Notes under the pieces: model-generated
The model's input: the letters and a program-made list of their open reading frames with translations, nothing else
What the model was told of the DNA's origin: nothing
Database searches by the model: none
Assembly (NCBI GenBank): GCA_021432635.1
Contig: MU270128.1
Span: 67,163-131,162, forward strand
Length of the DNA: 64,000 nucleotides
DNA from: Thozetella sp. PMI_491
Lineage: Eukaryota; Ascomycota; Sordariomycetes; Chaetosphaeriales; Chaetosphaeriaceae
Direction: 5' to 3'
Translations under genes and position numbers: made by a program
Shown here: positions 26,535-50,050 of the stretch, one piece after another
Numbering within the stretch: the first letter of the stretch is position 1
How the letters are laid out: each line of letters starts with the position of its first letter

Positions 26535-27336
26535 GGTTGCAACCTCTAAAGACCTCTCCGGGAGTGCAGATTGTGCATGACGGCCGAAGTAGGTCGACAA
26601 AGCGCTGCGACTGTTGACGGAATGTGAGTTCAAACGGGTAAAAGCTTGGGAAAGTTTTGGTGGAGTGCGGCAGAACTGGGAGCTACAATGGTGGGGCTGT
26701 AGGCGTAAATTACGCCATCAAAACTGTGCAGTACAATGCTTGCCCCGCGGCAATTGGAAGTAATGGAGTTGCGGGCCAGCACAAGTGCAGTTGGTTGTAC
26801 CGTATAACAGCCTCGTCGTCCGAATACTCATTTCATCAGCCGCTGGTCTGTGAGAGGAAAACGCGGCACTCTAGTATCGCAGCGTTGCTCTACTTGGTCC
26901 TCCCACTCCAACCACCTCGTTGGGATGCGCTAGTCATTGGAGCGTTACGACTCGATATTCTCGAAGATCTAGTCTAGCGTATCCCGTCTCCTCAATCCTG
27001 CACAGAGCTGTCGATCTGGGGCGCCGGAAGCTGGCCATTTGCTGCACGCTTCACCTCTCGAGACAGGGCATCTCGCGAGGGATCTTCGAACACTAGGCTG
27101 CCGTGTGTTTACTTGCAGAAAGGGGCATTAAACGGGGTACTACCCATGCCTGTAGCTAGTGGGCTCTGGCTGCCCTGCGCTTGGTGGGGGAGCTTCGACT
27201 GCCCCGCCATGCGCAGACTAAGTAGAACCAATTTTTGACTCACACGAGCGAACCCCTCCGAAGGGCGCGATCTCTTTTCCCCTTCCACCCACCTCTCAGT
27301 CTATGCGCCGGAGCTGTGTATCGGTCGATTGCTAAA
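26535..27336. other. Divergent promoter region TFIIIC / HIS7
   Basis: 800 bases between opposite starts. No coding sequence is supported. An open frame running into the HIS7 start from 27235 has no ATG and is 5' leader. Confidence 0.55.
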
Positions 27337-29061
27337 ATGCCCAAGGTCCACCTCCTCGACTATGTCGCGGGCAACATCCGCAGCCTCGTCAACGCCATTG
27401 AGAAGATCGGGTACGAAGTGGAATGGATCCGATCACCGGAGCAGATCGTGGATGCTGAGGTGCGCCCCCCCCCCGTGGCTTCCCATCCTACAGAGCCCAA
27501 TGCTGACCTGTATTGCCTTGCACAGAAACTGATTCTTCCCGGCGTCGGCCACTTCGGGCATTGCCTGTCTCAGCTGTCCTCCGCCGGCTACCTGCCAGCG
27601 TTGCGCGCCCATATCGACGCTGGCAAGCCGTTTATGGGAATCTGCGTTGGGCAGCAGGCCATCTTCCAGGGCTCCGTCGAGGACCCACAGTGCCCCGGCC
27701 TTGGTCTCATTCCGCGGTCGCTCGACCGCTTCGACGACGCCGACAAGGCCGTGCCGCACATTGGCTGGAATAGCGCGCTCTGCCAGACGGACGGGGCGCT
27801 GTACGGGCTGAACCCGGGGTCCAAATATTACTATGTGCACTCTTACAAGTACCCCTATAAGAAGGGGGAGCTAGAGGCCCTGGGCTGGGCCGTTGCCGTC
27901 GCGACCTATGGCCAGGAGACGTTCGTTGGCGCCCTCGCGAAAGGCAACGTCTTCGTCACACAATTCCACCCTGAAAAGAGTGGTGCTGCTGGCCTGCGGG
28001 TGATCAAGGCCTTCTGCGACGGTTCCGGCGCAGAGGCGCTGAAGGCGCAGGCGGCCATCGCGATCGATAACGGCTCCGCCCAGGCTCTGCCGCCAGCGGG
28101 CCTGACGAGGCGAGTCATCGCGTGCTTGGACGTCAGGACAAACGACCAAGGGGACCTCGTCGTTACGAAAGGCGACCAGTACGATGTGCGCGAAAAGTCG
28201 TCCGACCGGTCCGTCCGCAACCTGGGCAAGCCGGTCGACATGGCGAAGCGGTACTACGAGCAAGGCGCTGACGAGGTCACCTTCCTCAACATCACGTCGT
28301 TTCGCGACTGCCCGGTGGCCGACCTGCCGATGCTGGAGATCCTGCGGAGGACATCCGAGACCGTCTTCGTGCCGCTGACGATAGGCGGCGGCATTCGTGA
28401 CACGGTCGACACGGACGGCACCAAGGTGTCGGCGCTCGAGATCGCCACCATGTACTTCAAGAGCGGGGCCGACAAGGTGTCTATCGGTAGCGACGCCGTG
28501 CTCGCCGCCGAGGAGTACTACAACGCGGGCAAGTCGCTGTTCGGCAACACGGCCATCGAGCAGATTAGCAAGGCGTACGGCAACCAGGCCGTGGTGGTCA
28601 GCGTGGACCCCAAGCGCGTGTACGTCCCGAAGAAGGATGCCACACGCCACGCCACATTACAGACCAAGTTCCCGGGGCCCAAGGGAGAGGAGTTCTGCTG
28701 GTACGCGTGTACGATCAAGGGCGGCCGGGAGACGCGCGACCTGGACGTCGTCGAGCTCACCCAGGCAGTGGAGGCCATGGGCGCCGGCGAGATCCTGCTC
28801 AATTGCATCGACAAGGACGGCACCAACAGCGGCTTCGACCTGGAGCTGATCTCCCAGGTCAAGGCGGCCATCAGGATACCCGTCATTGCGAGCAGCGGAG
28901 CGGGCAATCCCGGCCACTTCGAGGAAGTGTTCGAGAAGACGACGACAGATGCCGCCTTGGGCGCCGGCATGTTCCATAGAGGGGAGTACACAGTGCAGCA
29001 GGTGAAGGACTTTTTGGCGCAAAAGGGGCTGGTGGTTAGACAGTACGAGGGGGCCCTCTAG
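27337..29061 (+). CDS. HIS7: Imidazole glycerol phosphate synthase HisHF (glutamine amidotransferase/cyclase)
   Basis: The start is ATG at 27337 (CTAAAATGCCC), beginning [17 protein letters not shown]. An in-frame 66-nt intron (27460-27525; GTGCGC...CTGAC...CACAG) interrupts the amidotransferase domain; reading through it would insert a Pro-rich peptide not found in the family. The spliced protein has 552 residues, the normal length. The glutaminase half shows Cys81 in GICVGQQA and the catalytic [10 protein letters not shown]; the cyclase half begins at RVIACLDVR and carries [19 protein letters not shown] and [10 protein letters not shown]. The enzyme makes imidazole glycerol phosphate and AICAR in histidine biosynthesis, in the cytosol, using a tunnel for ammonia between the halves. 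Fusion of HisH and HisF in one chain is standard in fungi. Confidence 0.97.
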
Positions 29062-29436
29062 GCTAGACGGTAGCGAAAAATAAAAAAGATATCCCCATGA
29101 CAACATGCACATAAGATTCTCAGCTCGATTGGGTGATTTGCATGGTATATTACCGGGTGCAACATAACTATGTAGAGAACTGAACCATATAAAGACCAAA
29201 GTTCGAATACAACAATCTCGGTTCCCGTAGGCCCTTGCGGTTCGCCATTCTGATATCAAATTACCAATCCTGGTGTCGCTCTGTGTCCTGTTTTTTTCGT
29301 GTGTAGTTTGCCTCCCAGAAAACAAGACGCCCAACGCAACGAAATAACAATTAATGCTCGCAGGAAGAAGATAGGATTGTCATCCGTGGCTATGCAAAGC
29401 TCGGAACGCCTGGCCTATTGCAACCTGTCCGAGCGA
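29062..29436. other. Convergent 3' region HIS7 / antizyme
   Basis: 375 bases between two stop codons. It contains the 3' UTRs of both genes and no coding signal. Confidence 0.55.
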
Positions 29437-30424
29437 CTAGAGCTCCATACCCATGGTGATCCACCGGTCGCTGGTCACGTCCGCCGTGCCGGCCCAGAAG
29501 TCCAGAGTGGTCAGCGAGAAGCCGGCCCACTGCAGTCCTTTGGTTAGAGACTTGGTGTCCTGCTTGGGGATCGATCGATCAATGCAGATAGTCATGTGTG
29601 CGCAGGCGAGTGGACCGTCGGCCAGCTCAATCAATGCAACGAGACTGGTTTTGCGTCAGCAATACGTCACAGTCGGAGGGCAAAAGGGGGTTGTGACTCA
29701 CGCAGGCTTCAGGTCCTGTCCAACGATGGTATTGTCGAAGAAGACAAACAAGGTTTTATCCTCGATGTCCTCGGAGACGAAGGCGCGGAAGCTAGCACCT
29801 CCAGCGTAGTCCCAAATCTCCAACCAGGCGCCGATGCCCACGCCTCCCGGGGCGCCCATCAGGGTCTTATCCGCGATGGGAAAGTCGTCCGGTGGCGTGA
29901 GCTGGCCGTGGGCAGAGACGACGCTGGTGGGTGCTCCGCTCGCGCCCATTCCATTGCTGCCGTACCCCAAATTGTTGTCGTAAACACCCGTCAGGCCGGA
30001 GCCGTGCGCAGCCGTGTTTCTCTCAACCAGAAACATGGCACGCAGGGTCTCGCAAAAGAATCTCTCACATTCTTCCCTGATCCGTAGTGCTGCCCCCCCT
30101 CGACGGTGCGGTCGAGTGTGGTTTCCCCTATGGCCGCGGCCCGAGCTGCCGCCGCGCGACTTCGTCTTGGGAGTCAGCGCGAGCTCGTTGGTCGCTGTGA
30201 TAGCCGCGAGGGGGGGACTTGAAGGCGGCGAAGGTAGTCCTGAGGAAGGAACCTCAGGAATACCACTCAGCCCCTGTAACGCTCGTAGTGCAGTAGTGCA
30301 GGCCCTTGAGCGACGAGGCACCCGCATCGACAATGTAGCAGCTGGCAAGGACATTGGCCTGGCGGACAACGTCCTCGCCACAATTACTACTCCAATTGTT
30401 ACTGGATTGTTTCATTGGCGCCAT
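29437..30424 (-). CDS. Ornithine decarboxylase antizyme with +1 programmed frameshift
   Basis: ORF1 starts at ATG 30424 and runs 56 codons to TGA at 30256-30254, ending in EWYS. The antizyme sequence lies in the +1 frame: skipping the T of TGA and reading GAG from 30255 gives EVPSSGLPSPP and then 186 more open codons to the intron (29701-29645, 57 nt, GTGAGT donor). The last exon (29644-29437) completes the antizyme fold. The whole product is 309 residues. Diagnostic blocks are EIWDYAGGASFRAFV, LFVFF and LVALIELADGPLACAHMTICI, matching the strand-helix core by which antizyme binds ornithine decarboxylase and sends it to the proteasome without ubiquitin. Frameshifting is stimulated by polyamines in all characterised antizymes, giving feedback control of polyamine level; here this is inferred. 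A caller that ignores the shift would start inside ORF2 or skip the gene. Confidence 0.9.
30254..30259 (-). promoter_or_regulatory. Programmed +1 ribosomal frameshift site (UCC-UGA)
   Basis: Minus-strand bases 30259-30254 read TCC TGA in the ORF1 frame, immediately after TGG TAT. UCC-UGA is the conserved antizyme slippery codon and stop from yeasts to mammals. The ribosome shifts +1 at the stop so that translation continues with GAG. The downstream stimulatory structure was not analysed. Confidence 0.88.
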
Positions 30425-31183
30425 GACTGTCGAGGTATGCCACTTTGATCGACCTAGAGAGGGGTATAGAGGCGGTGGCGAAGGTTGGGCCGGCGGGAGC
30501 GGTGGTTGCGAGTCGGGGCAATTGAGTGCGAGGCTGGTCTAGTCTGCGATGGTAGTTCGAGAGGGCGCTGGGCTTGGGCTGGTACAGGCGATGCTGCGTG
30601 GGTTGAGCGCGGGAGCGAGGCGGGAGATGTGGTCTTCGGAAGTCCGGACTTGGTCGTTGGAGGTGGAGCGTGAAAGGAGGTGAGGAGAGAGAAAGGCGGA
30701 GAAGCGGCAAGAAAAGACTCACTCAGGGCCGTCAGTGCCCTGCCGACCCGAAAACTGGGGGTTCAAAAGTGGGTTTTTGTGGCGTTAGGCCACTATCACG
30801 TGGCTGGCCCTGTGGCTCTCGGCTTTGCGCATTGGGGAGCGGCTCCCAACGGCGTTGGCGAACTCTCTGAGGAGTCGCTTCTTTGGAGCGCCCCAATCTC
30901 TTCGATTCCATTGGACCGCCGGAACAGGTTGCTCTCTCTCGTGCGCCCCTCCTCCGTCATGATGCCCCGCACACGACACCTTGGACCTTCCCGATCGATA
31001 TTGACGGCGTCGCTGCGGAGCTCCCACACGACAAGGTGTCGTTTTCTCCTCTCCCCATCCCAATCCATTCCCCCTTCGCCTCGCTCTAGTCGACCCCGGA
31101 GGTTCTTCCCAAGCACATCACCGTATCTCGGCCAGCCCCGCCACTACCTCACAGACTCCATCCGGTTTCATCAAGCACGCAAG
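30425..31183. other. Divergent region antizyme / dipeptidase
   Basis: 760 bases between two divergent starts. An open frame of the plus-strand gene extends upstream through 30680, and an ATG at 30959 could give an N-terminally extended dipeptidase (see findings). Otherwise promoter and leader sequence. Confidence 0.5.
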
Positions 31184-32614
31184 ATGGCGCCTCAGCTCGA
31201 CGGCTACTTCAAGCAGGTCGACGACATGTCGGACCACTTCATCGAGCGCCTCCGCAAGGCCGTGGCCATCCCGTCCGTCTCGGCCGAGGCCGCCCGCCGC
31301 CCCGATGTCGTCCGCATGGGCCACTTCCTCGCCGACGAGCTCAAGGCGCTCGGCGCAACGGTCGAACTCCGCGAGCTGGGCCCGCAGCCCGGACACCCCG
31401 AGCTCACCCTCCCCCCCGTCGTTCTCGGCCGTTACGGCTCCGACAAGAACAAGCGAACCATCCTCGTCTACGGGCACTACGACGTGCAGCCAGCGGAGAA
31501 GAGCGACGGCTGGGCGACGGAACCCTTCGAGCTCACCATCGCGGAGGACGGCCGCATGCTCGGCCGCGGCTCGACAGACGACAAGGGCCCGGTTCTCGGC
31601 TGGCTTAACGCCATCGAGGCCCACCAGAAGCTCGGTCTGGACTTCCCCGTCAACCTCCTGATGTGCTTCGAGGGCATGGAGGAGTACGGCAGCGAGGGTC
31701 TCGACGACCTGATCGAGGCCGAGGCCAAGAAGTGGTTCGCCGACGCTGACGCTGTCTGCATCAGCGACAACTACTGGCTGGGCACCGAGAAGCCCTGCCT
31801 CACATACGGCCTGCGCGGGTGCAATTACTACAGTGTCGAGATCTCGGGCCCCGGCGCTGATCTGCACAGCGGCGTGTTCGGCGGCACCGCCCAGGAGCCC
31901 ATGACGGACCTGGTGCGCATCCTGGGCAACCTGGTGGACACCAACGGGAAGATCTTGATCCCCGGCATCAACGAGCAGGTGGCCGCCGTGACGGCGGACG
32001 AGGAGGGTCTCTACGACAGCATCGCCTTCACGGTCGAGACCCTGCACGAGTCACTCGGCAGCAAGACGACCATCTTCGACGACAAGAAGTCGACGCTGAT
32101 GGCCCGGTGGCGCTACCCCAGCCTGTCGGTGCACGGCATCGAGGGCGCCTTCTCGGCGCCAGGAGCCAAGACGGTCATCCCCGCCAAGGTGATCGGCAAG
32201 TTCTCGATCCGCACCGTGCCCGACATGGAGATCGAGAAGACGAACGAGGCTGTGTACCAGTACGTCCGCGACCAGTTCGCCAAGCTCAACAGCAAGAACA
32301 CCCTGAACGTGTTTGCCCAGCACACAGGCAAGTGGTGGGTGGCCAGCCCCAACCACTGGAACTTCTCGGCCGCTGCCAAGGCTACGGAGCGGGTCTGGGG
32401 CATGAAGCCCGACTTCACGCGCGAGGGCGGCAGCATTCCCGTGACGATCACCTTCGAGCAGGCGACGGGCAAGAACGTGCTGCTGCTCCCCATGGGCAGC
32501 TCGACCGACGGCGCGCACTCGATCAACGAGAAGCTGGACAAGCGGAATTACATAGAGGGCATCAAGCTGCTCGGTGCATACCTGCACTATGTCGCGGAGG
32601 AGCCGCTCAGCTAA
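31184..32614 (+). CDS. Cys-Gly metallodipeptidase, M20 family (Dug1/CNDP2-like)
   Basis: From ATG 31184 the product has 476 residues, matching the family length, and begins MAPQLDGYFKQVDDMSDHFIERLR. Metal-site motifs are complete: YGHYDVQP (His, Asp), STDDKGP (bridging Asp), CFEGMEEYGSEG (catalytic and metal Glu), ISDNYW (Asp) and PMGSSTDGAHSINEK (terminal His). The dimerisation lid lies between ~200 and ~390. Yeast Dug1 hydrolyses Cys-Gly and is needed for glutathione degradation. Cytosolic by the short start. No intron. It is divergent from the antizyme gene. Confidence 0.95.
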   Translation: MAPQLDGYFKQVDDMSDHFIERLRKAVAIPSVSAEAARRPDVVRMGHFLADELKALGATVELRELGPQPGHPELTLPPVVLGRYGSDKNKRTILVYGHYDVQPAEKSDGWATEPFELTIAEDGRMLGRGSTDDKGPVLGWLNAIEAHQKLGLDFPVNLLMCFEGMEEYGSEGLDDLIEAEAKKWFADADAVCISDNYWLGTEKPCLTYGLRGCNYYSVEISGPGADLHSGVFGGTAQEPMTDLVRILGNLVDTNGKILIPGINEQVAAVTADEEGLYDSIAFTVETLHESLGSKTTIFDDKKSTLMARWRYPSLSVHGIEGAFSAPGAKTVIPAKVIGKFSIRTVPDMEIEKTNEAVYQYVRDQFAKLNSKNTLNVFAQHTGKWWVASPNHWNFSAAAKATERVWGMKPDFTREGGSIPVTITFEQATGKNVLLLPMGSSTDGAHSINEKLDKRNYIEGIKLLGAYLHYVAEEPLS

Positions 32615-35684: not shown

Positions 35685-37494
35685 ATGTTCAAGTCGATAC
35701 TCTTTGCGGCGGCAGCGCTGCTCGCTTCATATCTCTACTCGAGGCTGCGGTACATACGGTTCAAGCAGTATGCCTACATACCGCAGTTGCCCAGCAACCT
35801 TCTTCTGGGTCATCTCAAGGTCTTTGGAGAGTTCCTACAGCGGGGCAGACCAGATCGCCATCCTGGTAAGAGGCGGCTTCCAATTACGCGTGTCCATTCT
35901 GCCAAACGTTGGAATCGTCAGTTGCTGAGCTGCTACGTCAGATGCGATCTTTGAGGAAATGTGGATTGCCAAAGGCCGACCACCGGTCATGCTTGTAGAC
36001 ATGCGCCCCATCGCTCCCCCAATGTTGCTCGTGCCAACACACGAGATCGCCGAACAAGTATCTAGGCCAACCAGGCTGCACCCCTTGAGCACGACAAAGT
36101 CGCCAACTTGGACTCATATGATTCCCATCATCGGAAAGTCGTCTCTTCTCGGCAGAGAGGTAAGTCGCGCTTGCATCGACTTTCTACTACCAAGATAGTA
36201 CTAACGTCAGGTTCTACCAGGGTCTGGACTGGAAGGAATTGCGCCGGCGCTACAACCCGGGCTTTACCTCTCAGCACATGTTGGAAGTATTGCCTCTCAT
36301 CTTAGATAGAATAGACCCCTTCCTCGGCTACCTCGATCAGTTTGCCGCATCGGGCGAGACCTTTTCCCTGGAGACGCTCATCTCCAACCTCACCTTCGAT
36401 GTTATTGGTGCCGCCATCATGGATGTTGACTTCAAAGCCCAGTACCTAGACCGTTCACAGCAAGGTGAGATCATCCGGCTCTTTTGGGAGCTCCTTCAGA
36501 CGTACAACGACGACAAGAACAACCTCCCATGGTGGGCCGTCCCGGCGACGACATACAGGCGTCGACAGCTAGGAAAGCGCATCGATGCATTGGTCAAAGG
36601 CGAGATTCAAAAGAACTACAAGGAGTCCAAGGAGAAAGCGGCAGGGAATCAGTCGCGCAGCATCCTTTCATTGAGCTTCCAAGACACCAACGTTCTTACG
36701 CCCCAACTCCTTTCCGAGACCTCAGATCAAGTGCGCACCTTCCTCTTCGCAGGCCATGACACCAATACCGGTGTGTTGCAATGGGTCATATACGAGCTCA
36801 GCCGGACGCCTCGCGCTCTGCAGGCGGTGCGTGATGAGCTGGATACTGTTTTCGGCCCCGACCCTGACCCGCGGTCTGTCTCTACCCGACTCACGCAGGA
36901 CGGCGCCGAGTACATCCCTCGCCTGACCTACATCAGCGCCGTGATCAAGGAGACGCTGCGGCTCCACCCACCAGCCGGCACGGCGCGAATGACGGCGCCT
37001 GGGACTGGATTCGTCGTCCGTGCCCCCACGGGCGAGGAGTTCTGCCTCGACGGCCTCATCCTCTATTCCTGCCATGCCATCATCCAGCGCGACCCGGCCA
37101 TCTACGGAGAAACCGCGGACGACTGGGTGCCCGAACGCTGGCTTGATGGGAAATCCAATGACATTCCTGCATCCGCGTGGCGGCCGTTTGAGAGGGGGCC
37201 AAGGAACTGTATCGGCCAAGAGCTGGCAAATCTCGAGTCCCGTGTCATCCTCGCCATCATCGCCCGGCGGTACGACTTCTCGAAGATCGGGCTCGGCGAA
37301 AGTGTTCGCGATGAGGAGGGCCGCCCGGTCGTCAACGAGAATGGGCAGTATGAAGTCAAGCCCGAGCTATATAACGTGGGTTGATTTCCAGTAGTTCGCT
37401 GCTTCGAGATTAGAGCTAACCATTGTTCGCGCAGACTAGAAGGATGACTTCAAAACCAGTGGACGGCACCCAGATGACAGTTAAGTTCGCTTGA
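35685..37494 (+). CDS. Cytochrome P450 monooxygenase
   Basis: Four exons (35685-35865, 35942-36159, 36221-37375, 37435-37494) keep phase and give 537 residues. An N-terminal membrane anchor (FKSILFAAAALLASYLYS) is followed by an I-helix motif AGHDTNTGVL, the K-helix ExxR in KETLRLHPP, the PERW motif and the heme loop FERGPRNCIGQELA with its ligand Cys. The last exon is tiny and ends in the family-like tail MTSKPVDGTQ. The sequence resembles StcS-like P450s (CYP59 region of the tree), a low-confidence subfamily guess. The protein would sit in the ER membrane and use a cytochrome P450 reductase. No secondary-metabolite core enzyme is adjacent. Confidence 0.9.
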
Positions 37495-50007: not shown

Positions 50008-50050
50008 GGGGATCACTAAATCCGCGGGTTCCGCGGATTTAGTGATCCCC
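50008..50050. repeat. Perfect 20-bp inverted repeat (hairpin)
   Basis: Left arm 50008-50027 (GGGGATCACTAAATCCGCGG) and right arm 50031-50050 are exact reverse complements around a GTT loop; a further G-C pair extends it by one. The right arm is the start of the tandem repeat listed next. Confidence 0.95.

Follow-up and report, generated by a model that had tools for sequence, protein, structure and literature searches.

The codon pair UCC-UGA is the shift site of most known antizymes (PMC5009743, in the sections available), and the accessible part of PMC3432380 names fungal members that use it, namely SPA of fission yeast and sequences from Botryotinia and Emericella. For the antizyme mRNA of Agaricomycetes, several features have been described. 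In the available sections of PMC4505036 these comprise module A, a stretch of 6-7 nt abutting the shift site that has a G at the third position of codon −4 followed by UGG; a stem of 14 bp that lies 106 nt 5′ of the shift site, within the first half of ORF1; and a nascent-peptide signal. When GAG was tested as codon −4 in the mushroom antizyme cassette, full efficiency was retained. We found no discussion of such an ORF1 stem in ascomycetes in those sections. In yeast ABP140, according to the accessible part of PMC12661321, an upstream stem lies 6 nt from the site, and a displacement by one codon abolishes its effect. PMC12661321 also states, in general terms, that single-ORF annotation models miss frameshifts, and antizyme genes are for this reason easily mis-modelled.

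The window analysed here, a 64,000-nt stretch of the Thozetella sp. PMI_491 assembly, contains on its minus strand a locus that we regard as a cellular ODC antizyme gene of the classical, polyamine-induced +1 frameshift type, with a probability of about 95%. ORF1 (30254..30424) extends over 56 codons from the ATG at 30424 to the TGA at 30256-30254 and ends with UAU-UCC-UGA, the TCC occupying 30259-30257. Its ATG lies in the context GTCATGG, with G at −3 and +4, which is the best start context of the locus, and no ATG is present 5′ of it between 30425 and 30831. When one base is skipped after TCC, the +1 frame is free of stops from the GAG at 30255 to 29702 (ORF2 exon 1, 29702..30255). A predicted intron of 57 nt follows (29645..29701), with a GTGAGT donor that matches at 6/6 positions, a CTGAC branch-like site and a CAG acceptor, and exon 2 (29437..29644) ends with the TAG at 29437. 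The computed translation of the frameshifted and spliced product, from ORF1 through exon 2, is 309 aa long, and the interval 29437-30424 corresponds exactly to the gene from its final stop to its ATG. The original prediction of a 56-codon ORF1 ending at UCC-UGA on the minus strand was thus exact to the base, and its claim that the +1 frame continues without stops through a spliced last exon held once the intron at 29701-29645 was removed.

The putative shift site (30254..30259) is, as had been claimed, the conserved antizyme site UCC-UGA (PMC5009743, in the sections available). Directly 5′ of UCC is a module A-like context, G-UGG-UAU (30260..30266), in which codons −4 to −2 are GAG UGG UAU. 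Among the 437 ATG-initiated ORFs of the window with 30 codons or more, 6 end in TCC-TGA. This codon pair is therefore not rare by itself, and it is the joint occurrence of site, frame, domain and context that counts as evidence. The longer pattern GTGGNNTTCCTGA, which was picked post hoc after the site had been seen, occurs once in the 64 kb when both strands are counted. No Rfam frameshift element was matched; an Rfam match to a GRIK4 3′ UTR element, at 16.3 bits versus 38, was dismissed as chance.

The identity of the downstream protein was determined by profile search. The original prediction had assigned it to the antizyme family and proposed a search of the joined product as a check; the spliced +1 product matched Pfam ODC_AZ (PF02100) with an E-value of 2.3e-44 and 150.4 bits, far above the curated cut-off of 24.2 bits. 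The match covers residues 143-253 of 253 and positions 3-114 of the 114-position profile. Searched separately, the two exons matched adjoining parts of the profile (exon 1, positions 3-44, 53.1 bits; exon 2, positions 43-114, 87.0 bits), and removal of the intron joins them without a stop into one continuous match. The domain was found solely in the spliced +1 frame, and the short ORF1 matched no Pfam family at E ≤ 1, which bears out the proposal that only the +1 frame carries it. A phmmer search with the exon 1 frame and the spliced ORF2 as single-sequence queries matched no antizyme chain in the PDB, a match to a solved chain being no defining feature of the family; its sole PDB match was to an antibody, which we take as chance. 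Relatives of exon 2 were also sought in viral and prokaryotic contig collections, which are uninformative on fungal conservation: none of the 17 pattern-matching stretches in viral contigs and none of the 163 in prokaryotic genome contigs was confirmed.

Further genes of polyamine synthesis were found in the same assembly (72,315,471 bases), in which a profile search gave a single ODC_AZ match. There is one PF02784 match for ODC (E 1.4e-77), and this gene reads openly through two exons and contains YGAVKCN-like and WGPTCDGID motifs; we take AVKCN and WGPTCDGID to be the carriers of the catalytic Lys and Cys. S-adenosylmethionine decarboxylase matched at one place, and spermidine synthase (Spermine_synth) at four, three of them adjacent on contig C17 and a weaker one on contig C54.

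The frame favoured by codon usage changes at UCC-UGA. Codon log-odds were derived from 5260 codons in seven long reading frames of the window, with stops left out. The values for frames 0, +1 and +2 were −0.025, −0.330 and −0.178 on the 5′ side of the site, where frame 0 is best, and −0.218, +0.090 and −0.125 on the 3′ side, where frame +1 is best; in exon 2 the ORF2 frame again scores best (+0.215). A second scoring based on 12 ORFs with a stop penalty left the order of the frames unchanged. Within 30154-30065 of the minus strand the third frame is preferred (+0.103 versus −0.234 for the ORF2 frame). This Arg- and Gly-rich segment has no stop in the ORF2 frame, and a run of seven G residues lies within it at 30099-30093. 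In our reading it is low-complexity coding sequence, an assembly indel being a less likely alternative.

One could envision two ways of obtaining the antizyme protein without a frameshift. One scenario is that an unrecognized intron removes the TGA and places ORF1 and ORF2 in one frame. Potential splice pairs are not lacking, given that 58 of the 61 GT-AG pairs of 40-299 nt examined across the TGA keep the frame open and that 14 further candidate pairs lie entirely upstream of it. None of the 58 TGA-spanning candidates, however, has a donor matching at 6/6 positions. Inspection covered the best 12 of the TGA-spanning 58 and, from the upstream set of 14, eight pairs. Among the best 12 of 58, the four candidates with 5/6 donors all lacked a branch-like site, and of those with 4/6 donors one, at 30263-30146 with the donor GTATTC, possessed such a site. 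A stricter donor pattern left one candidate, a 52-nt intron with a GC donor and no branch-like site. The predicted last-exon intron, with its 6/6 donor and CTGAC site, is better marked, and an intron across the TGA would reduce the canonical UCC-UGA context to a coincidence. We consider this scenario extremely improbable.

Another scenario is that translation of ORF2 starts directly at a +1-frame AUG, at 30354, 30327 or farther 3′, and that ORF1 is an upstream ORF. The +1 frame does contain five ATGs between 30424 and 29830 (30354, 30327, 30036, 29949 and 29859), and the first three are 5′ of the entire ODC_AZ domain. Yet those at 30354 and 30327 have weak contexts, with C and T at −3, and are preceded by two frame-0 ATGs, the first of which is in a good context. 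The preference of codon usage for frame 0 on the 5′ side of the site also argues against such a start, which we judge to be very unlikely.

The reading that we prefer, frameshifting at UCC-UGA, would operate as follows, the shift itself being inferred from the anatomy of the gene and the known biology of the family (PMC5009743, in the sections available). Ribosomes would initiate at the AUG of ORF1, arrive at UCC-UGA and, for the most part, terminate. At high polyamine levels, some of the ribosomes whose P site holds UCC would shift to the +1 frame, read GAG and complete the 309-aa antizyme, which would bind ODC monomers and direct them to the proteasome, thereby closing the feedback loop. Both the polyamine response and the targeting of ODC are here ascribed to the gene by virtue of its family membership. 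A correct gene model supplies the polyamine feedback of this genome.

The decoding tRNAs were surveyed by running intron-aware ARAGORN on 45 tRNA places; 63 of 1545 candidates were scored, and the counts are minimum values. The Ser anticodons among the scored tRNAs were AGA at no fewer than two loci and CGA at one or more, besides at least one locus with an odd ACT call, and two loci were ambiguous; the GGA anticodon was absent from the 63 scored candidates. Genes for tRNA-Ser(AGA) and tRNA-Glu are present in the assembly, and the genome has a UCC-reading tRNA (IGA). On re-pairing of IGA from UCC to CCU, two of the three positions could pair, so that slippage and out-of-frame entry into the A site are both possible.

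Two predicted RNA hairpins were found in the transcript. The first, in ORF1 (30343..30380, minus strand), has a 14-bp stem, one mismatch, 2 bp and a 4-nt loop, with a calculated energy of −26.3 kcal/mol; it begins 121 nt 5′ of UCC, and 83 nt separate its foot from UCC. Windows of 38 nt as stable as this number 4 of 63,962 on both strands and fall in three distinct places including ORF1. When ORF1 was recoded with random synonymous codons, a local energy as low as its best one was reached by 2 of 300 versions in one run and by 9 of 1500 in another, and among 90 coding segments of the same length from the window one had as low a z-score and none as low an energy. The fold of the whole ORF1 is not unusual (−63.9 versus −58.1 ± 5.4 for synonymous versions, 69 of 500 of which reach the ORF1 value). 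Because the ABP140 stem is position-sensitive at 6 nt, the ORF1 stem, at a distance of 83 nt, would need to act in another mode.

The second hairpin (30234..30263, minus strand, −15.5 kcal/mol) contains the shift site. Its 8-bp stem is formed by UCCUGAGG and CCUCAGGA around a 6-nt loop, with three outer pairs, and the 5′ arm is UCCUGAGG itself. This hairpin was spotted first and tested afterwards, with controls confined to the codons of this gene, shuffles and window scans: its stability was reached in 0 of 200 shuffles, by 74 of 42,648 windows of 30 nt and by 4 of 1000 synonymous ORF2 starts. Across the 64 kb, 10 separate places, the shift site among them, can form perfect 8-bp hairpins with loops of 3-10 nt. 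The excess shrinks when the hairpin is folded within a 91-nt segment (z −2.3, 4 of 200). For the RNA 3′ of the site, shuffled versions are as stable as the real sequence (z 0.31 for 114 nt and 0.09 for 150 nt). With UCC in the P site, the shift-site hairpin would already be melted and would therefore not be a classical 3′ roadblock.

Our guess is that both hairpins may tune the frameshift, and we treat them as leads rather than findings. That both are real regulatory RNA elements, with the stem shared with mushrooms through deep inheritance or convergence and with UCC-UGA sequestered, seems rather unlikely. The geometry of the shift-site hairpin is unlike that of known stimulators, which are positioned 3′ of the site, and sequestration of UCC-UGA, if true, could couple frameshifting to the speed of RNA refolding between ribosomes. 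Of broader interest is the stem in ORF1. Should orthologues have retained it, an RNA element known from mushroom antizymes would be extended to a further lineage of fungi, and comparative tests of its role would become feasible. Titles and abstracts in the literature searched, a set to which the broad survey 10.1093/nar/gkm035 does not belong, revealed no antizyme frameshift elements of filamentous ascomycetes.

The neighbours of the antizyme gene are a HIS7-like gene, in convergent orientation, and a gene for an M20 peptidase, in divergent orientation (29061-31200). The HIS7-like reading frame, a fused HisH-HisF, lies at 27226-29061, and a hairpin of −26.8 kcal/mol (27177-27214, plus strand) is located just 5′ of that frame in the likely 5′ leader. 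Together with the short introns and the gene content, this fused gene points to a fungus, probably one of the filamentous ascomycetes. At 50011-50048 lies a 38-nt palindrome, the stablest in the window (−29.1 on the plus and −28.3 on the minus strand), and it contains AAATCCGCGGGTTCCGCGGATTT. A cytochrome P450 reading frame is found at 36164-37381 on the plus strand.

How does this locus compare with the described systems? In S. cerevisiae OAZ1, antizyme is likewise made through a +1 frameshift at UGA, at the site GCG_UGA_C rather than UCC-UGA (PMC5009743 and PMC12661321, in the sections available). With the Agaricomycete antizyme mRNA, as described in the accessible part of PMC4505036, the locus has in common the G-UGG of module A and a stem of 14 bp, predicted here, which lies within the first half of ORF1 and some 100 nt ahead of the shift site, the stems being likened from the text description. 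It differs in the site (UCC-UGA here, UUU-UGA there), in the energy of the stem (−26.3 kcal/mol predicted here, at least 30 kcal/mol there) and in having no excess structure 3′ of the site. Comparison with the UCC-UGA antizymes of PF02100, found in most animals and also in fungi, revealed no difference in protein-coding layout: the overlapping ORFs, their +1 relation, the C-terminal antizyme domain and an ODC gene in the genome are the same (PMC5009743 and PMC3432380, in the sections available). The gene is well-founded but expected, an ordinary antizyme.
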